Shown: positions 399-17,260 of the stretch, one piece after another
Layout of the letters: each line of letters starts with the position of its first letter
Numbering within the stretch: the first letter of the stretch is position 1
Assembly: GCA_022482625.1 (NCBI GenBank)
Contig: JAKVOU010000001.1
Span: 1,350,784 to 1,414,783, forward strand
Reading direction: 5' to 3'
Length of the DNA: 64,000 nucleotides
From: Spirochaetia bacterium
Lineage (GTDB): Bacteria > Spirochaetota > Spirochaetia > Sphaerochaetales > Sphaerochaetaceae
Program-made: the position numbers and the translations under genes
Notes under the pieces: generated by a model
What the model was told of the DNA's origin: nothing
The model's input: the letters and a program-made list of their open reading frames with translations, nothing else
Database searches by the model: none

Positions 399-1883
399 CT
401 ATCTAACCTCACTCTTGAGCTTTTCTATCGCTCTTTCAATTCTTTCACAGGTTCTGTCCTTGCCAAGCAATGCAATCATATCCTGCATCGGAAGAGTTAC
501 ATTGCTGCTGGCAAGAGCTACACGCAAAGGAGTAAATACCCCATTGGCTTTCAGTCCCTTTTCTTTTGCCATCTCATTGATTGCGGCCTCGCTTTCACTG
601 AAAGGACGGCCAGAAGCAAAACCTTCCTTGATAATCCTATAATCAGCCTCGAGGGCTTCCAGGGAAGACTTCAGATCCATTTTCTTTGCTATGAACAGTT
701 CAGTAGCGGCCAAAGGTACATCAGTAAAGAAGAAACGTGTCAGTTCAACGACATCAGAGAGAACTTTCATCCGAACCTTTACGGACGGAAGCATCTGCTG
801 GATTTTCTTGTCCTCTGCCTCAGTCGGCGGATCATTGATAAAACCAGCTTTCGCCAAGAATGGTATAAGAAGCAAACGCAACCGTTCATCATCACATTCC
901 CTGATATACTGACCATTGAACCAATCAAGTTTCTTATAGTCAAAGACTCCCGGAGCCTTGTTGATCTTGGCAATGTCAAACAGCTTTTCCAAGTCTTCCC
1001 TGGAAAAGAACTCACGTTGTCCATCATAGGACCAACCGACCAAACTGACATAGTTCAGCAAAGCTTCCGGCAAATAACCGGCCTGTCTGAAATCCCTCAC
1101 ACTGGTAGAACCATGACGCTTGGACAATTTCTGTCCATCTTTTCCCATCACCATCGGAAGATGGCAATAGACAGGAGGTTCCCAGCCAAAGGCCTTGTAC
1201 AGCAGGACATGCAAGGGACCGGAAGGAATCCACTCCTGGGCCCGCATAATATGGGTAATCCCCATAAGATGGTCATCGATGACATTTGCAAGATGATAGG
1301 TAGGATACCCATCACTCTTCAGAAGGATGGGATCCGGAGAAACATCACGGTTTCTCCTCGTGATGTCTCCCATCAATACATCATGAAAAGTCGTCTTGCC
1401 ATCAAGAGGCACTTTAAGCCGTATCACAGGCTTTATACCTCGGGCTTCATACATAGCCCTCTGCTCGGCCGTCAGGTTCCTGCAATGACGATCATATCCC
1501 TGTACAGGACTTTTCGAAGCAATCTGTTCTTTCCTGACTTCTTCAAGCCGTTCAGGAGTGCAATAACAATAATAGGCCTGTCCTTGCTCGATAAGCCAGT
1601 GTGCATATTTCTGATATATTGCGTATCGTTGGCTTTGTATGTATGGACCATATGGACCACCGACGACCGGACCTTCATCCCACTTGATTCCAAGCCATTC
1701 CAACGTATCGTATAAGTCCTGAAGGCTGTCGTCGCTGTAACGTTCCCTATCTGTATCTTCAACACGGAGGATAAACTTGCCGCCTTGGCTCTTGGCAAAA
1801 AAATAATTGAACAGTGCCGTCCTTACCCCACCGATATGCTGCAATCCCGTCGGAGACGGAGCATAACGTACTCTCACTTCCAT
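399..1883 (-). CDS. gltX: Glutamyl-tRNA synthetase
   Basis: Class I glutamate-tRNA ligase of about 494 residues, a normal length. The N-terminus carries [14 protein letters not shown] (the HIGH-type signature, HIGG being normal for GltX). A KLSKRHG sequence about 240 residues in is the KMSKS-type loop. The C-terminal half is the helical anticodon-binding region. A start at ATG 1883 gives [13 protein letters not shown] as in the family. An in-frame TTG at 1892 lies only 3 nt from an AAGGAG (1896-1901) and the ATG lies 12 nt from it, so the exact start is unsettled. It is followed directly by glyS. Confidence 0.95.
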
Positions 1884-2105
1884 GGAACTCAAAGACTCCT
1901 TGTAAAAATTACATATTGTATGTTGTACAGTAAATCAACAGGAATAGCAACCTGACAAAACAACAGCCTTGCAACAGCAGGCAATGCAGTATCTGCGAGA
2001 CAGTACATAAAAATGTCAGCTGACCGAGATCTTTCAAAACCTAACACAATAAGTCTGGAAACATACTTTTGTACAGAAGCATGAAACGTCCATACATCAG
2101 CCAAG

Positions 2106-4929: not shown

Positions 4930-5684
4930 TGGAACCTTTGCTTTCCTGCAAAGACGTCTGGTTTGGTTACCAAGAGGAAAAACCATTGCTGAAAGCAGTA
5001 AGCTTCCAGCTTGAAAGTGGCTGCCTGACTTCCATATTGGGACCGAATGGCGCAGGAAAATCCACTTTGTTTTCCCTGATGCTTGGATTGTGCAAACCCC
5101 AAAAAGGTATCATCGAACTCCAAACCAAGGATATAAGAACGCTCTCCAGAAAAGAAATCGCCCAAAATATTGCCTGGGTTCCCCAGAGAGAACAGATAAA
5201 CTTTGAATTTACCGTTGATGAAATGGTTTCAATGGGAAGCTATCTGGTCCAGCCAAATGTACAAGAACGCGAAAGCATTATGGAAAAGGTAGGTATCGCG
5301 GAACTCAGAGATAGATCCGTAACCAGCCTAAGCGGCGGCGAATATCAAAAAGTCATGATAGGCAGAGCTTTGATGCAACACCCCCGCCTGCTTCTTCTGG
5401 ATGAACCGACTACGTATCTCGACCCGCTGCAACAGCAGTATCTGATGGGATTGCTTGCCGACCTAGCTGCACAGGGATTATGCATCTGCTGCATCCTTCA
5501 TGAAGTCAACATTGCACTTTCATACAGTAGCCGGACCCTTCTGCTCAAGGAAGGGAAAACCCTTGCCTTCGGCCCTACGGACAAAGTACTCACAGAAACA
5601 AACCTGACCTCACTTTATGACGTCAGGACAACAATTGAAAACGGCACTAAGACAGGAAAGATTTACTGCAGTTTCACCCTTTGA
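4926..5684 (+). CDS. ABC transporter ATPase of the metal-chelate importer
   Basis: ATPase of the FecE/BtuD class, 252 residues. Walker A is GPNGAGKST (39-47), the Q-loop is WVPQREQ, the signature is LSGGEYQKV, Walker B is LLLLDEPT, and a switch His lies in LHEVN. The gene overlaps the permease stop; a strong AAAGGAGG is 3 nt from ATG 4926 and 6 nt from a second ATG at 4929, so the latter may be the true start. Its last 11 bases overlap the convergent hydrolase gene. All catalytic motifs are intact. Confidence 0.93.
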   Translation: MMEPLLSCKDVWFGYQEEKPLLKAVSFQLESGCLTSILGPNGAGKSTLFSLMLGLCKPQKGIIELQTKDIRTLSRKEIAQNIAWVPQREQINFEFTVDEMVSMGSYLVQPNVQERESIMEKVGIAELRDRSVTSLSGGEYQKVMIGRALMQHPRLLLLDEPTTYLDPLQQQYLMGLLADLAAQGLCICCILHEVNIALSYSSRTLLLKEGKTLAFGPTDKVLTETNLTSLYDVRTTIENGTKTGKIYCSFTL

Positions 5685-6516
5685 GCAACCAATCTACAGC
5701 GGCTTTGTTGCAAAGGTCCTGGGCATCCCTGTTCTTTTCATATTGGATGAGATGTCCAGCTGCAGGGATGAGCAGGCTACTGTTTTCTCCCGTACCTGTA
5801 GTCTCTATCAAATGGGCTACCTCAGGACTGACTGCAAGATCTTGTTCTCCACAGATAGTCAAGGTATCGGTAGCTATGGAAGGTAAAAGTCCTCTCGCCT
5901 CTTTGGCAAGTCTTCCTAATTCAAGCAACTGTCTGAAAGCATCATAAGACCAATATTCCCTGCCTAGATACGCATCATCATCAGGATCCCGTTCACAAGT
6001 CCCTTGAAAACCAGGATCTGACTGCCAAGGTTTGGAGCGAGTCAAAGCATGCCGGCCGGCTGTTTCCAGTTGTTTCTCATCATAGCCGGTCAACAGCAAT
6101 GCAGGAGCGAACAATACCATCTTCTTCACAGGGAAACGCGAGGCAAGGATCAAGGCAATAAGTCCACCCATTGAATGCCCGATCAAATAAATATCTTTGT
6201 ATTGCCTTGGAAGTTCCTTGGCAGCACATTCAGCAGTTCCAAGCCAATCCTGGCCCGTTGTTGCCAAAAAATCCTCCCTGCTGGTCCCATGCCCGGAATA
6301 CCGGGGACAAAAAACATCAAAACCCGCGGAAAAGAGATCTACTCCCGGTCTAGCCATTTCACCAGGATAGCCAGTATAACCATGACAACATAGTACAGCT
6401 ACGTCAGGCTTCTTATCATGGACCAATTTCCATGGGCGGGCGCATTTTCTCGGTTTCTTCACATCCCGATAACTTCCGGTATTCCAATCTGTAACATCAA
6501 ATGAAAATAAAGACAT
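5674..6516 (-). CDS. Alpha/beta hydrolase (esterase/monoacylglycerol-lipase type)
   Basis: Cytoplasmic serine hydrolase of 280 residues with no signal peptide. The nucleophile elbow is GHSMGG, an Asp follows in CGEQDLAV, and the His is in AAGHLIQYEK, giving a complete triad. An early VLCCHGYTGYPGE provides the oxyanion HG. This pattern fits carboxylesterase and monoacylglycerol lipase groups; the substrate is unknown. The gene converges with the importer ATPase, sharing 11 bases, and starts 57 bases downstream of the RloB-like gene on the same strand, so it may be read through from it. Confidence 0.8.
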   Translation of the reverse strand: MSLFSFDVTDWNTGSYRDVKKPRKCARPWKLVHDKKPDVAVLCCHGYTGYPGEMARPGVDLFSAGFDVFCPRYSGHGTSREDFLATTGQDWLGTAECAAKELPRQYKDIYLIGHSMGGLIALILASRFPVKKMVLFAPALLLTGYDEKQLETAGRHALTRSKPWQSDPGFQGTCERDPDDDAYLGREYWSYDAFRQLLELGRLAKEARGLLPSIATDTLTICGEQDLAVSPEVAHLIETTGTGENSSLLIPAAGHLIQYEKNRDAQDLCNKAAVDWLLKG

Positions 6517-6572: not shown

Positions 6573-7217
6573 CTAGCGTTTCATACCTATCATTTTTTGG
6601 TTATGGGTTATGTCAGCCAGCCCGCAGTTGTCTGTTATTGCATTGAGCATATAGACAAGATTCGTCGCAGGAAGACTGGTTTTCGCCTCAGCCATCTGGT
6701 TGTACGAACGTGCATTTATGGCAGCCTTTGCCTTGTTCGGATACAAGGCAAGATGCAGATTCAACCCATCGGCCCCAAGCAGAAAGTCTTTTCCTGGAAA
6801 ATATCCAGGAATATAACGCGGCAATGCATCATCAATGGCAGCAGCTGTATCGACATAGCCCTTGGGAGCCATTATATGTAACATATACCAAAGCTGTATG
6901 CCTGGATTACACCATGCAAGCTTAACTTTTTTCTTTTCTGCAAACGATGTAATAGCTTTGACATCGACGGCAGTAATCCCCAATTCCTCAAATCCGAACA
7001 AAAGCCAGGCCTCATTGAATTTACCATGGCTTCGTTTCCTTGCAGTATAGAGAATAAGAGCTTCAAGTTCATCTTTTACTCCCTCAGCCCATTGTACCGT
7101 CAGGTTCGTATATCGACAATCCTTGCGCATCTGGGAAAAAAAGAGTGATTCCTCTTCACTTGCCGTAACAATCAGCATCGTCTTCTTGGGAGCGGTAGTA
7201 ATTCTTTTACGAGCCAT
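6573..7217 (-). CDS. RloB-like (AbiLii-type) protein lacking the family acidic residues
   Basis: A 214-residue protein that aligns by eye with the RloB family, TOPRIM-like partners of RloA ATPases in AbiL phage-defence modules. It starts ARKR...KKTMLIVT and has FNEAWLLF, VKLAWCNPGIQLWYMLHI and LPATNLVYML at the usual places. The family acidic positions are changed. The usual EGEKTE reads ASEEES (19-24), DRD(D/E)H reads GFEEL (75-79), and NPCFELW reads NPGIQLW (104-110). Nuclease activity is therefore doubtful. It begins 2 bases after the partner ATPase gene. The family call is from motif spacing, not a database search. Confidence 0.72.
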   Translation of the reverse strand: MARKRITTAPKKTMLIVTASEEESLFFSQMRKDCRYTNLTVQWAEGVKDELEALILYTARKRSHGKFNEAWLLFGFEELGITAVDVKAITSFAEKKKVKLAWCNPGIQLWYMLHIMAPKGYVDTAAAIDDALPRYIPGYFPGKDFLLGADGLNLHLALYPNKAKAAINARSYNQMAEAKTSLPATNLVYMLNAITDNCGLADITHNQKMIGMKR

Positions 7218-7219
7218 GG

Positions 7220-8470
7220 TTACTTATCCTCCTTTCCAGCATCCTGGAAGCTGAACTCACTGAGCAGTGGCAAAGCACCGAAAGCACCGTTCAGATACTG
7301 CTGACTGGTCAAATCCCTTCTGCGGGAATATTTGAATTGTGCCAAGCTGAAATAGACTGTGGAACTTTCCCAGTTTTTTTCGGCAAAATAGATACCGTCA
7401 CGTCTCATCAATCCCGGTCTCAGAAGAGTCGGATTACAATCAACTGCCAACAATTGTGAACCTGCCTTATCATTGCAGGCTTCAAAGATTTCTATGATAT
7501 GTGTAAGCACATCAGGATGGAGCAACATGCCGAAGTCATCGATGACGAGAGTCCGCTGCGCCACAAAGCTTTCAAAAAAGGCAATTCCGATCAGTGTCAG
7601 TCTTCGTAAAGACAGACTTTCCTGCATGAAATAGGAAGCATAGTGCATGGTCACGTTCGTATGAACAAATATCAGCCGGTCATTCTTTACCAAGATGTTC
7701 CTGATATCCGTTATATCGACAGACCAGAGAAAATTGATAAGCTGCTGTACCCATGCCGGATGTGCAGTAATCTGTTCGATGATATATTTCTCACTGAGAG
7801 ATGAAACTCCCATGGGAAGGATATTCAAACGGACCTTGAACCATTGCTGCACAGAGGAAGCGGTTTCTCCCCCCCGTTCGGCAGCTGCAGCCAAGAAGGT
7901 ATGCTTTTCATCAACCTTGTTCATCAACCGTCTCTTGTCACCCCTGTACATCTTGCCGAATCGGTATGCATACGTCTTTGGTGTATCATCTGTAGCAAAG
8001 GGATCTTCCTTCACCGTCCGCTCGAACATCAGCTTCTTGCTCCTGTCATAGATAAAATACAGGGATTCGCCCGTTATTTGCTTATAGGTAGAATGAAGCG
8101 TATAGACGGCTATAATCGATGGTTTGCCAGCCTCCGTATTGCCTTTGTCCAGCAATATCCGCAACTTGATAGTACAAGGTTCACCTTTTTCTTCCGAATA
8201 GGCGAATCCAGTGCCCGACAATACCTGGATGGGATTCTCGCTCTCAGCTGGAGCACAGACAATGCTTTTGATTGATTCAAGTGCCCTGACAAAGGAACTC
8301 TTGCCGGCACCATTTGGTCCGATTATGGCTGCGGTCTTGATAAGTCGCAGTTTGTCGTTGACCATTACGGTCTTGGAATCGGCAAACCTGTTGTCCCTGA
8401 CAGCCTCATAAGAAATGGTCTGAGGCTCTTTGACGGACTTGAAGTTCGCAATCGTCATATCCAACAACAT
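7220..8470 (-). CDS. RloA/AbiLi-like AAA/ABC ATPase with degenerate catalytic motifs
   Basis: A 416-residue P-loop protein of the AAA_15/AAA_21 type, the usual partner of RloB in AbiL defence modules. The N-terminus IANFKSVKEPQTIS and Walker A GPNGAGKSS (51-59) are normal, as is the C-terminal QQYLNGAFGALPLL. The signature, usually ES(D)GT, reads ESLSLRR (284-290). Walker B reads VIDDFG (309-314), with Asp for the catalytic Glu. The switch THN reads DCN (344-346). ATP binding looks possible while hydrolysis is questionable. ATG 8470 follows GGAGG. A weak promoter (-35 at 8558-8563, -10 TATACT at 8535-8540, minus strand) lies upstream. Confidence 0.75.
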   Translation of the reverse strand: MLLDMTIANFKSVKEPQTISYEAVRDNRFADSKTVMVNDKLRLIKTAAIIGPNGAGKSSFVRALESIKSIVCAPAESENPIQVLSGTGFAYSEEKGEPCTIKLRILLDKGNTEAGKPSIIAVYTLHSTYKQITGESLYFIYDRSKKLMFERTVKEDPFATDDTPKTYAYRFGKMYRGDKRRLMNKVDEKHTFLAAAAERGGETASSVQQWFKVRLNILPMGVSSLSEKYIIEQITAHPAWVQQLINFLWSVDITDIRNILVKNDRLIFVHTNVTMHYASYFMQESLSLRRLTLIGIAFFESFVAQRTLVIDDFGMLLHPDVLTHIIEIFEACNDKAGSQLLAVDCNPTLLRPGLMRRDGIYFAEKNWESSTVYFSLAQFKYSRRRDLTSQQYLNGAFGALPLLSEFSFQDAGKEDK

Positions 8471-8587
8471 ACGATAGTACCTCCAAAGTTACAATTAGGT
8501 AATCATCTGCACAAAAACTTTCAACTACTCAGAAAGTATATCCTCATTTATGAAAATATGGAAGAAAAAAACAAGTAAAGTTCAAAA

Positions 8588-8617
8588 ATGGGCTATTGTT
8601 TGCAAACAATAGCCCAT
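8588..8617 (-). terminator. Perfect 30-bp palindrome followed by T-run
   Basis: Two 15-base arms are exact inverted copies with no spacer (ATGGGCTATTGTTTG at 8588-8602 and its complement at 8603-8617). On the minus strand TTTTT follows, so it should end transcription of the small gene finishing at 8667, just upstream of the RloA promoter. The opposite strand lacks a good T-run. Confidence 0.8.
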
Positions 8618-8666: not shown

Positions 8667-9023
8667 TCATTTGATTATTCTATCAGCTACCTTCTTCATT
8701 TTTTCACCGACTGTCGTTCCGCTGATAAACAAGTCAGGAAAATCATCCTTCGTTTTATGGTCAATAATCCAGTCAATAAACTTATCATGTTCAAGTTCCT
8801 TTGCACCATCCACTACGGCAATCTGTGCAAAAGCTCCGCTGGAAACCCATCGTTTCAGCTGTTCATATGCCTTGATGCCGTCTCCGGCAGCATAGCGCCT
8901 GCATGATGTATTTCCAGTGGCTGCACTTCCTGAAAAATCAATCACTGCCGTCTTCTTTCCTTCTTCAAGCATAGTCAGGACTTTCCCTGTGTCTGCACTT
9001 TCTACCATAATGACTTTTGCCAT
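8667..9023 (-). CDS. Unrecognised small protein
   Basis: A 118-residue soluble protein beginning MAKVIMVESADTGKV and ending KMKKVADRIIK; I do not recognise the family. It alternates short hydrophobic strands (KVIMVES, KTAVIDFSG, QIAVVDGAKEL, PDLFISG) with helices, which suggests a Rossmann-like or degenerate P-loop fold, but no Walker A is present. The start is ATG 9023 with AGGAG eight bases before it. It lies 10 bases downstream of the lipoprotein gene ending at 9034 and is probably co-transcribed with it, then stopped by the palindromic terminator at 8588-8617. Confidence 0.65.
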   Translation of the reverse strand: MAKVIMVESADTGKVLTMLEEGKKTAVIDFSGSAATGNTSCRRYAAGDGIKAYEQLKRWVSSGAFAQIAVVDGAKELEHDKFIDWIIDHKTKDDFPDLFISGTTVGEKMKKVADRIIK

Positions 9024-9033
9024 TGACTTGCTC

Positions 9034-10110
9034 CTATCTATCGGACAATTGTTCCTCTGCATCAGAATTGATGTTTTCGTAGAGTTTCATTCTGTTGATT
9101 GCCGCACGAACCTGGCTGTTACCGCTTTTTGCATAGATTTCCTGCAACAGGGATATTGCCTCTTTACGTTTTCCCATTGCCTCTTTGACAATAGCAGCAT
9201 TATACCCAGACGGTATATGACCATCCTTCTGCCATGCAGCAACAAATACATCATAGGCATCCTGCAGTTTCCCTCGCTTCACCAAATCATATCCTGAGGA
9301 AGCTACAGCATTCTTCGGCTTGTTATCCATCAGCGTCACGTTCGTATAGACAGTAGTCGGCACCAAATCAGACAACATGTTCTTTACATAGTTTCTTTCC
9401 AACCGCATGTATAGATTTTCCATAGATGGCAATTCAGTACCGTCATCATCAGGGTCTGCAGTAATGCTATGTCTGATTTTATCCGTGTAGGTATCACTGG
9501 TAATGAGAGAACCGTCATGGACATTTATCAGCTTATAAGTAATACCAAGCGTCGCCGTCTGGACAATTGTCACTTTTCTTTTGCCTGACGATATGTATTC
9601 TTTTCCTGAAGAACCCGATACATAGTCAGGGTTACGAAGCCAGATTTCATCACCGATATATACGCGCTCGCTTTCATCAAGGAAGGACACTTGGCTTACC
9701 AACAAGGCATCCATACCTTGGCTTGCAAGTTTTTCAAAGCTACGGGTCCCGTAGTTCGTAGCAAAAAGATAGGTTTCTGTCACAGATGGTTTCATGACAT
9801 TGAAATAACCGCTGGCAATCAGCTTGTCTGCAATATCGGAAGAGAAAGCAGAAGCCACTTCATCAGGAATCATCCGATTATACCCACTATATCGATATGC
9901 AGAAACATCGTCATATTCTATATCAACTTTTCTGTCATAGAACACAGGCACATTGCTTCCGACGGATGTCGGAGCAATTGCTATGTTCGTATATTTTTTC
10001 AAATCGTATTTAGCTCCTTTCAGATAGGACACAGTTACTGATGTTGAACAAGACATCAGCAGCAGGCAGGTGCCTGTAGCAAGCAGCAAGAACAATTTCT
10101 TTGCTTTCAT
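9034..10110 (-). CDS. Lipoprotein with C-terminal TPR-like helices
   Basis: A 358-residue lipoprotein with signal MKAKKLFLLLATGTCLL and lipobox LLMSC, so Cys about 21 would be acylated. The middle resembles periplasmic lipoproteins of the LpoB/CsgG-like fold (YTNIAIAPTSVGSN start, ITYKLINVHDGSLITSD strand pair, as in proteins that bind peptidoglycan synthases or assemble pores). The last 90 residues form two or three TPR-like helix pairs (KRGKLQDAYDVFVAAWQ, GKRKEAISLLQEIYAKSG). The start is ATG 10110 after AAAGGAG. It is the first gene of a two-gene unit. Function is unassigned. Confidence 0.78.
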   Translation of the reverse strand: MKAKKLFLLLATGTCLLLMSCSTSVTVSYLKGAKYDLKKYTNIAIAPTSVGSNVPVFYDRKVDIEYDDVSAYRYSGYNRMIPDEVASAFSSDIADKLIASGYFNVMKPSVTETYLFATNYGTRSFEKLASQGMDALLVSQVSFLDESERVYIGDEIWLRNPDYVSGSSGKEYISSGKRKVTIVQTATLGITYKLINVHDGSLITSDTYTDKIRHSITADPDDDGTELPSMENLYMRLERNYVKNMLSDLVPTTVYTNVTLMDNKPKNAVASSGYDLVKRGKLQDAYDVFVAAWQKDGHIPSGYNAAIVKEAMGKRKEAISLLQEIYAKSGNSQVRAAINRMKLYENINSDAEEQLSDR

Positions 10111-14386: not shown

Positions 14387-17260
14387 ATGGTACGATCATC
14401 ACGAAAAGCTTGGCTGACCATCATAGTGACTGTCATCCTGACAGGCCTGATGGGGTATCAGATTCCAAGCATCATCATTGACAATGACATCAAGAATTAC
14501 CTTCCGCATACACTTCCGGATTACAAGACAATGGAAGATGCAGACAAGGTATATGGTAGCGAAATATTGATGGATGTTGCATTGCAGACAACAGGTAAAA
14601 CGATACTGACTGCCAGCAATGTCAAGGAAATCAGGTCGCTTTCAAAGGATATCAAGAACCTGGCACATGTTGATGATGTCCAATCATTGACAAACATTGA
14701 TTTTCTTACTGCTGTAGATGGCGGCATGGAAGCAAGATCACTTGTTCCTGATGATTTCACGGGTACTGCCGAAGAAGTCGAACAGCTCAAAAAGGATATC
14801 GTGGACTGGCAATCCATGTATGATAAGGTAATCATCTCAAAGGACAGAAAAGGAAGCCAGGTAGTAATTACCATAGACAAGGATATTACCCCCCATGAAA
14901 TGGATGTACTGTATGACCAGGTTGCAGAGATTGTCCAAAAATACAATACCGGTGACCTGAAAGTAACCATGGCAGGCGATCCTGTCTTGTCCCAAATGGC
15001 TCGCAGATATATGAATACTGACTTGGCCCATTTGATTCCATTGGTAACTCTTGTCGTCCTCATCTGCCTCTTGCTTTCGTTCAAGAAACTGGAAGGAATG
15101 TTATTGCCTGTCATCACCGTGTTGATCAGCACAATATGGACGGTAGGACTGATGGCCGTTACGGGGGTACATTTTACCGTTGTCTCAAGCTGCCTGCCGG
15201 TAGTATTGATAGCAGTAGGCTCCGCCTATGGTATTCATGTCCTTAATCACTACTATGAAATGATTGCCAAGGAACATGGAACGGTATCAAAGGAAAGGCA
15301 ATCCGAAATAGTCAGGGAATCCATGAAAAAGATCAAAGGACCGGTCATCTTGGCCGGCATCACGACTATCGCAGGTTTCATTTCAACAATCACCAGCCCC
15401 ATCATTCCTTTGAAAACCTTTGCCCTGTTCAGTGCAATCGGTGTTACCATTGCATTGCTCCTTTCCCTTTATTTCATACCTGCCTTACTTATAGTCAAGC
15501 CACTAGGTGCAGAAAACAGACGGATAAAGAGAAGACTTGAAGCAGCCAAGACCTTACAGGATGCAAAAGAAGGAAAAACAACCAACAACCGCAGGAACTT
15601 GGTTGCCGCTAAGTTGGCAACACGTTCTGATTCATGGCACAAGTCTTTTGTAGGCAGTTTCTACGGCTACTTGGCAGGTAACAGAAGCAGACTCATATTT
15701 TTCTTTGTCGTAATCATGGGTCTGTCTTTCTGGGGACTGTCCAGACTCAATGTCGAATCAGCAATCATAAATTATTTCCCGGCATCTTCTTCTATCCGTC
15801 AGGATGCAAAGATGATTGATGAAAACTTTGCAGGTTCAAATACCTTCAATTTCTCAATTGAAGGCACAAAGGCCGGTGATTTGACAAATCCTGAGATATT
15901 GCAGGACATGGATGACCTTTCTACTTATCTGACAGGAAAATATCCACAGATAGGGAAAATAATTTCCTTCTCCGATTTTATCAAGCGCATGAACCAGGTC
16001 ATGCATGTAGAGACGGAAGCATCTGCCGAAACCACGGAAGAAACTACAAATACCGGTGCTGCTCCTGACAGCTTCTTCAGCAGTGACACTTCATCCTCTG
16101 ATACGGGCTCCGCTCCTGACAGCTTCTTCAGCAGTGACACTTCATCCTCTGATACGGGCTCCGCTCCTGACAGCTTCTTTGGCAGTGACGCATCATCTTC
16201 TGATACGGGTTCCGCTCCTGACAGCTTCTTCAGCGATTCCGCTGACACAACAGGAACCTCCGAAGGCACTACAGCTTCTACTGAGGTCAAACCTTATGGT
16301 TCTTCACAGATGCTTTCACAGACAGTCACAGTTGATCAGATGATGGCCCTGCTTGCAAAATCATATGCAAGAGCTGGTGGTGGAAAAAATCTGACAGTTG
16401 ATGAATTCTATGAAGCGCTGGAAAAAGAATTGAACTACAATGGCGCGGCTTATGACGAAATCCCGACGGACATAACGAAATATCCTGTGGAAAACGAAGA
16501 GGGATTGAAGAATCTCATTTCACAGTACCTGCTGTTATATTCGGGTTCCTTGGACCAATTTTCCAATGATCCGTTGCAGCCTTCAATGGCAAGGATGCAG
16601 GTACAGCTTACTACTCATGAAACAAGGGTCGTCGCTGACATAATTGCTGATGCAAATGCCTACGTCGCTGCTCATTTCCCTGCAGGATACACCTTCAAGG
16701 CCTATGGAATAGCCGAACTGGAAAATGCATTGACGAACATGATTACTTCAAGCCAGGTTTCCAGCCTGATACTTGCAATTGCCATCGTATTCCTGATTCT
16801 GACACTCTATTTCCATTCCCCGATTGCAGGTTTGATCGGTGCCATACCTTTGATGCTGTCAATCCTGATCAACTTCGGCATCATGGGACTTGCACATATC
16901 AACCTGGACATGGTAACCAGTCTGATCGGTTCCATTGCCATAGGTATCGGCGTTGATTATACCATTCATTTTATGAGTGATTACCATAATGAATGGCTTG
17001 TCTACCACGATCCGGAAAAGGCAACTCTGAATACGCTTGCAGTATCCGGCAAAGCAATTGTCGTGAATGCCGTATCTGTTGGATTAGGTTTCTTAGTATT
17101 GGCACTCTCACAGTTCGTCGTCCTGCGATATATAGGTATCCTGGTCGCTATCGTCATGTTGACCAGTTCCCTCACAGCGATGACGATCCTTCCTGCGATG
17201 CTGAATGCTTTCCAGCCAAAGTTCCTAAACAGGCCTGTAGCAGGAAAGGCTGAAAAATAA
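14387..17260 (+). CDS. MMPL-type RND transporter
   Basis: A 957-residue inner-membrane exporter of the RND/MMPL superfamily, formed by two halves. Each half has a periplasmic domain and a six-helix block. The sterol-sensing-like blocks VLIAVGSAYGIHVLNHYYE and IGIGVDYTIHFMSDYHNEW carry the family GxxxDY-type helices. Between them, around residues 540-640, lies a Ser/Asp/Phe-rich linker made of 17-residue repeats (APDSFFSSDTSSSDTGS). GGAGG precedes ATG 14387. It leads a three-gene unit with a LolA-like protein and a beta-barrel protein, which suggests lipid or lipoprotein export across the envelope. The substrate is unknown. Confidence 0.9.
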   Translation: MVRSSRKAWLTIIVTVILTGLMGYQIPSIIIDNDIKNYLPHTLPDYKTMEDADKVYGSEILMDVALQTTGKTILTASNVKEIRSLSKDIKNLAHVDDVQSLTNIDFLTAVDGGMEARSLVPDDFTGTAEEVEQLKKDIVDWQSMYDKVIISKDRKGSQVVITIDKDITPHEMDVLYDQVAEIVQKYNTGDLKVTMAGDPVLSQMARRYMNTDLAHLIPLVTLVVLICLLLSFKKLEGMLLPVITVLISTIWTVGLMAVTGVHFTVVSSCLPVVLIAVGSAYGIHVLNHYYEMIAKEHGTVSKERQSEIVRESMKKIKGPVILAGITTIAGFISTITSPIIPLKTFALFSAIGVTIALLLSLYFIPALLIVKPLGAENRRIKRRLEAAKTLQDAKEGKTTNNRRNLVAAKLATRSDSWHKSFVGSFYGYLAGNRSRLIFFFVVIMGLSFWGLSRLNVESAIINYFPASSSIRQDAKMIDENFAGSNTFNFSIEGTKAGDLTNPEILQDMDDLSTYLTGKYPQIGKIISFSDFIKRMNQVMHVETEASAETTEETTNTGAAPDSFFSSDTSSSDTGSAPDSFFSSDTSSSDTGSAPDSFFGSDASSSDTGSAPDSFFSDSADTTGTSEGTTASTEVKPYGSSQMLSQTVTVDQMMALLAKSYARAGGGKNLTVDEFYEALEKELNYNGAAYDEIPTDITKYPVENEEGLKNLISQYLLLYSGSLDQFSNDPLQPSMARMQVQLTTHETRVVADIIADANAYVAAHFPAGYTFKAYGIAELENALTNMITSSQVSSLILAIAIVFLILTLYFHSPIAGLIGAIPLMLSILINFGIMGLAHINLDMVTSLIGSIAIGIGVDYTIHFMSDYHNEWLVYHDPEKATLNTLAVSGKAIVVNAVSVGLGFLVLALSQFVVLRYIGILVAIVMLTSSLTAMTILPAMLNAFQPKFLNRPVAGKAEK
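16061..16234 (+). repeat. 51-bp in-frame tandem repeat in the RND gene
   Basis: Three full units (16061-16111, 16112-16162, 16163-16213) and a partial fourth. Units 1 and 2 are identical, and unit 3 differs at a few positions. Each unit encodes APDSFFSSDTSSSDTGS or a close variant in the periplasmic part of the transporter. Unit number could vary by recombination. Confidence 0.95.

Follow-up and report, generated by a model that had tools for sequence, protein, structure and literature searches.

Loss of catalytic residues in an AbiL-type ABC ATPase/RloB-like gene pair of Sphaerochaetaceae: a candidate case of a silenced and domesticated defence module

The RloA/RloB (AbiL) pairs combine an ABC-type ATPase with a Toprim-type partner, and in the canonical case the RloB-type effector is the toxin and the AAA protein the antitoxin, a Clostridium algidicarnis effector having been tested that way (PMC10440598). 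One question then is what such a pair might do when both partners have lost the catalytic residues of their families, as is the case for two genes in the window, by which we mean the whole stretch of 64,000 nucleotides analysed here from a spirochaete of the family Sphaerochaetaceae. An earlier note on this DNA had described two open, coupled frames with good ribosome sites and considered the pair to be either a binding-only or decoy version of a phage-defence module or a new function built on its scaffold. Both frames were recovered at the coordinates given in Table 1, separated by a 2-base gap (7218-7219) and each preceded by a GGAGG ribosome site in the sequence. The residues that the note had named are likewise all present, comprising ASEEES, GFE and IQLW in the RloB-like protein and, in the ATPase, Walker A, ESLSL, the Walker-B Asp (DDFG) and DCN. 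Across all loci with both genes the intergenic gap varies between -14 and +17 bases.

Table 1. Positions in the window of the gene pair, its sequence motifs and two conserved downstream neighbours
Feature	Position	Strand	Remark
RloA/AbiLi-like ABC ATPase, 416 aa	7220..8470	minus	Walker A intact; signature, Walker B and switch altered
GGAGG ribosome site, ATPase	8480..8484	minus	sequence
Walker A GPNGAGKS (residues 51-58)	8297..8320	minus	clade-conserved
Signature ESLSL (284-288), replaces ESxGT	7607..7621	minus	
Walker B DDFG (311-314), catalytic Glu to Asp	7529..7540	minus	
Switch DCN (344-346), replaces THN	7433..7441	minus	
RloB/AbiLii-like protein, 214 aa	6573..7217	minus	lacks catalytic acid set
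GGAGG ribosome site, RloB-like gene	7228..7232	minus	within the end of the ATPase gene; sequence
ASEEES (19-24), replaces EGxxTE	7146..7163	minus	E19 lost 94/94
GFE (75-77), replaces DxD	6987..6995	minus	first Asp kept 2/94
IQLW (107-110), replaces FExW	6888..6899	minus	Glu kept 36/94
C-terminal motif CGLADITHNQK (198-208), clade-specific	6594..6626	minus	absent from canonical copies aligned
Alpha/beta hydrolase, downstream neighbour	5674..6516	minus	conserved in 59/65 loci
GltX (glutamate-tRNA ligase, named by reading), downstream neighbour	399..1892	minus	conserved in 58/63 loci

Membership of the two proteins in the RloB and RloA-type families, which the earlier note had proposed, is borne out by profile comparison. 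The RloB-like protein matches RloB (PF13707) with E=1.2e-8 and 35.9 bits (cut-off 31.5) and the ATPase matches AAA_21 with E=4e-11 and 44 bits (cut-off 27), while PADLOC names them AbiLii (E=4.7e-5) and AbiLi (E=8.9e-54), respectively. The AAA_21/AbiLi match, together with the position upstream of a RloB-like gene, places the ATPase by sequence with RloA/AbiLi. Within the group of relatives described below, hereafter the clade, PF13707 is matched by 69/69 RloB-like members (E of 0.01 or better), and a profile-profile comparison (hhalign) of these proteins with canonical RloB gives a probability of 99.9%. The AlphaFold2 models are of high confidence, with pLDDT values of 93 (RloB-like) and 86 (ATPase), the latter adopting the Rad50/SMC/PtuA head fold with Z up to 20.5. 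The RloB-like model is matched best by the OLD Toprim domain 6nk8 (Z 7.8, rmsd 4.6, 148 residues), in a tie with an unrelated chain, 2p62 (Z 7.1), and the match to the PARIS chain 8ux9 is weak (Z 5.7); Foldseek with this model returned no match at E of 1e-3 or better, and a sequence search of solved structures found no credible relative. The structural matches are consistent with a Toprim fold, without proving it, and RloB has been assigned to OLD_TOPRIM by HHpred, as reported in PMC10440598.

How far the catalytic losses extend beyond the window copy can be judged from the aligned relatives. In 12 canonical RloB proteins E19, G20, T22, E23, D75, D77, E108, W110 and H114 are invariant, and the canonical copies examined, drawn from the genomes and the class in which the clade occurs, have retained the acidic set, a single one departing at E108. 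The window protein carries A19, G75 and Q108. Of 94 clade RloB-like proteins, none retains E19, the first Toprim Glu (Ala in 77, Ser in 14), and G20 and D75, the latter opening the DxD motif, survive in 2 each. These three losses are common to the clade, which does not show the acid set (EGxTE, DxD, FExW) of the active RloB form. The earlier note's statement that every acidic landmark is changed is thus true of the window copy, but not of the clade, in which E23 of TE is retained in 79/94 proteins (84%), D77 in 48/94 (51%) and E108 of FE in 36/94 (38%). Since these other acids are kept in 38-84% of the clade, part of the motif set in that note is copy-specific: the clade consensus reads T[ST]ExEALYF and FGFxD, and the exact ASEEES and GFE are the window copy's own. 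Given the retention of E23 and D77, a weakened metal site may conceivably remain. Newly invariant in the clade are the polar residues D33, R31, K32, R35, C198 and N206, and its specific residue stretches are a SQMRKDCRYxN helix and a CGxADxxHNQK tail; H114 is kept in clade and canonical RloB alike.

The ATPase of the clade (n=87) keeps Walker A, with changes in the signature, Walker B and the switch. The signature is ESLS in 85/87 and ESLG in 2/87, the Walker-B Glu is Asp in 87/87, the acid next but one after that position is Gly in 86/87, and the switch His is absent throughout (Cys in 85, Val in 2). By comparison, every canonical ATPase examined has the Walker-B Glu and ESxGT, and all but two have the switch His. 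By motif, the clade departs from the hydrolysing RloA/AbiLi form (Walker-B Glu, ESxGT, switch His) and has the appearance of a degenerate ABC nucleotide-binding site, with a non-canonical Walker-B Glu and switch His and an intact Walker A. Substitution of Asp for this Glu lowers ABC hydrolysis, without necessarily abolishing it. Sites so marked are impaired and still bind ATP (PMC4046567). A clade conserving ASEEES, GFEEL, ESLSL and DCN was what the earlier note had envisaged as support for its claim. Such a clade exists as far as ESLSL/DDFG/DCN and the absence of E19 and D75 are concerned, and to that extent the claim is supported. Judged on sequence, the pair is a variant of the RloA/RloB (AbiL) kind standing outside its active members.

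Among 61 related genomes searched, most of those belonging to the same family as the window carry adjacent relatives of both proteins. Identities are mostly 37-57% (RloB-like protein) and 46-72% (ATPase), and in G031 the RloB-like copy is incomplete. In a sample of 395 genomes of the class, a clade profile finds a match in 87 of the 92 that belong to Sphaerochaetaceae (E no higher than about 3e-45), and the family members without the gene are genomes of 1.2-1.7 Mb. Outside this family the clade occurs in two more, each represented by two genomes, f3 (G038, G084) and f4 (G039, G065), and the next profile matches, at E=6e-32 and weaker, are canonical RloB in the cases examined. When 84,980 GTDB species were scanned with a single pattern, 93 relatives were confirmed, all of the 80 listed being spirochaetes; members of the f3/f4 type would escape this pattern, and the scan does not prove the clade absent elsewhere. 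One further candidate, G597 (f36), the only non-f1 ATPase match below 1e-40 in the phylum sample, was rejected, its ESQGT, DELE, THS and CEGxKTE being canonical. When canonical copies are included in the trees, the clade separates from them with a support of 0.94 for the ATPase and only 0.63 for the RloB-like protein, and the split is deep. The members from f3 and f4 seem to be intermediate, since they lack E19, D75, the Walker-B Glu and the switch His but keep ESLG and E108, and for this reason the losses were probably stepwise.

Both genes of the clade are under strong purifying selection. The dN/dS of the RloB-like gene has a median of 0.058 and a maximum of 0.12 (52 pairs), and that of the ATPase gene a median of 0.026 and a maximum of 0.07 (54 pairs), as estimated by NG86 from pairs with unsaturated dS, which overlap and are not independent; another estimate agrees. 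The opposite pattern, in which the relatives would be canonical and the window copy alone fast-evolving, had been named in the earlier note as telling against its claim; what is found instead is a clade-wide state with low dN/dS. The ATPase and RloB-like trees are free of conflict at a support of 0.95. When the two genes are joined, 13 well-supported splits recur in the tree of RpoB, a marker picked by BLAST that lies elsewhere in the genome, and 2 deep splits conflict with it; RpoB was used in place of GltX, the tree of which has 6 conflicting splits with that of the ATPase at the 0.9 level. Inheritance of the pair is mostly vertical. As a rule, defence and toxin modules are mobile and patchily distributed. 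Among 72,556 plasmids there is no match to the RloB-like protein, phage records contain only distant matches to the ATPase, and no copy of the pair was confirmed in IMG/VR.

The pair also occupies a characteristic place on the chromosome. In the usual order of the family a CsgG-like lipoprotein, a CobO-type protein and a CpsB/CapC-type PHP phosphatase precede the ATPase and the RloB-like gene, which are followed by a protein with a TM segment and a LuxR-type HTH, an alpha/beta hydrolase, GltX, GlyRS and TyrRS, the CsgG-like lipoprotein and the synthetases being named by reading their sequences. Of the 73 GTDB loci with enough flank, 71 have the TM and LuxR-type gene directly downstream of the pair and 46 the PHP phosphatase gene directly upstream; linkage to the LuxR-type gene is seen in the f3 relatives also, and that to the PHP gene in f3 and f4. 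Neither gene is present at this locus in the window's genome, a LuxR-type gene being represented elsewhere by distant HTH matches only and the PHP phosphatase by six paralogues. Since this genome keeps the pair without either neighbour at the locus, the two are not strictly needed. Where relatives carry an intact CobO/BtuR (PF02572), the window has a 131-aa protein (8667-9062, minus strand) that aligns weakly (21%) and has no P-loop, as is likewise true of the same-genus copy (G001), and PF02572 has no match in the window's genome; this protein is, by all appearances, a second degenerate enzyme adjoining the pair. Between its gene and that of the ATPase lies a terminator-like inverted repeat (8588-8617) with a 13-pair stem and a 4-base loop.

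On this evidence the pair is probably (we would put it at about 0.6) an ancient RloA/RloB module that has been silenced and domesticated, leaving a complex that binds ATP but hydrolyses it poorly and in which the nuclease partner is dead. That the disarmed ATPase/nuclease pair has become a near-core regulatory or structural 'pseudo' AbiL/RloAB complex, mostly linked to a LuxR-type regulator and a CpsB-like phosphatase, we regard as an evenly balanced proposition. The silencing of an AbiL-type ABC ATPase and Toprim-fold module would have taken place in an ancestor from which Sphaerochaetaceae and two other, related lineages of spirochaetes descend. Its Walker A being intact, the ATPase has most likely retained ATP binding and assembles into a dimer of ABC heads, and the Walker-B Asp, the lost switch His and the altered signature would make it a poor hydrolase; since binding is likely kept and turnover poor, it would function as a clamp that ATP keeps locked for long periods. 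We envisage the RloB-like protein as binding this clamp without cutting nucleic acid by two-metal Toprim chemistry, new contacts being provided perhaps by the clade-specific helix and tail. The whole would constitute a constitutive ATP-gated module for binding or regulation, plausibly co-expressed with the membrane LuxR-type regulator and the CpsB-like phosphatase in most of the family.

Comparison with known systems places these inferences in context. With canonical RloA/RloB (AbiLi and AbiLii) the clade pair shares the two-gene order, the coupling and the profiles, and differs in lacking the acid set, the Walker-B Glu, the switch His and ESxGT, in occupying a vertically inherited near-core locus where canonical pairs are patchy, and in its specific C-terminal motif. 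PARIS (AriA ATPase with the Toprim tRNase AriB) and OLD/Gabija similarly join an ABC ATPase to a Toprim-type partner, the fold match being weak, but are active nucleases, and AriB requires its Toprim Glu, the E26A mutant being inactive (PMC12409363); we infer that E26 corresponds to E19 of the RloB-like protein. The degenerate sites of the heterodimeric ABC exporters BmrCD and TM287/288 have the same Walker-B Glu to Asp change, a non-canonical switch and an intact Walker A (PMC4046567); in the exporters, however, one of two sites is degenerate, whereas here, with a single ATPase gene, a homodimer would be degenerate at both. Cran1, an archaeal OLD ATPase with a role in the cell cycle, is a precedent for the use of a defence-type ABC ATPase/Toprim scaffold outside antiviral defence (PMC12796447), although it is a catalytically active nickase and ATPase, whereas the clade pair lacks its catalytic residues.

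Other readings of the same data have to be set against domestication. The pair could still serve phage defence by a changed chemistry, through another active site or by a route that involves no nuclease, the ATPase serving as sensor, a reading for which family membership in defence modules, the newly invariant polar residues and the shared H114 speak; the near-core, single, fixed locus, the mostly vertical descent, the absence of close copies from the plasmid, phage and viral collections searched and a dN/dS at housekeeping level, where defence genes are usually patchy, make it unlikely. Still in the sphere of defence, a silent pair might titrate phage inhibitors or restrain active pairs in the same cell. 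Canonical pairs do coexist with it, as in the window's own genome (L069, G000:C1:2846000-2856000), where one at G000:C1:2850683-2852531 with the full acidic set matches PF13707 at E=5.5e-32. A second RloB match, however, is found in only about a third of the family genomes carrying the silent pair, so that in many of them (395-genome class sample) the client is undetected, and the split from canonical copies is deep; such a guard or decoy is highly improbable. Domestication, as far as the sequences allow a choice, fits better than a phage decoy, and of the two alternatives offered by the earlier note it is the new function that has fared better, the binding-only or decoy version of phage defence being left unsupported by the fixed near-core locus, the mostly vertical descent, the absence from the mobile collections searched and the frequent lack of a second RloB.

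Alternatively, the complex might mainly serve the adjacent LuxR-type regulator and the CpsB-like phosphatase; it could, for instance, form an ATP-dependent signal relay to stress genes or to those for surface polysaccharide. The frequency with which these genes directly flank the pair would accord with such metabolic or envelope regulation, but adjacency is not interaction and the window's genome keeps the pair with both missing at the locus, so that we hold this to be quite doubtful. Ordinary decay, with pseudogenes in progress, would account for the lost catalytic residues and deserves practically no credence, given frames open across the family, clade-wide identical substitutions and dN/dS far below 1; the earlier note was right in that the losses do not look like random decay. 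A domesticated pair would be a natural case in which the ABC ATPase/Toprim scaffold can be studied apart from cutting and ATP turnover, and in which a weapon has become a housekeeping gene. It also implies that profile-based defence annotation, such as the PADLOC call, can label a silenced and probably non-defence gene AbiL. A limited search of open-access papers found no description of the silenced pair.

Two observations concern other parts of the genome. Outside the window (G000:C1:2640634-2649250), a distant AbiLi-like ATPase has four paralogues of the CpsB-like PHP phosphatase nearby. Within it, a large transporter-like ORF (14387-17260) contains a 51-base in-frame tandem repeat (16061-16234), with 3.4 copies and 93% matches.
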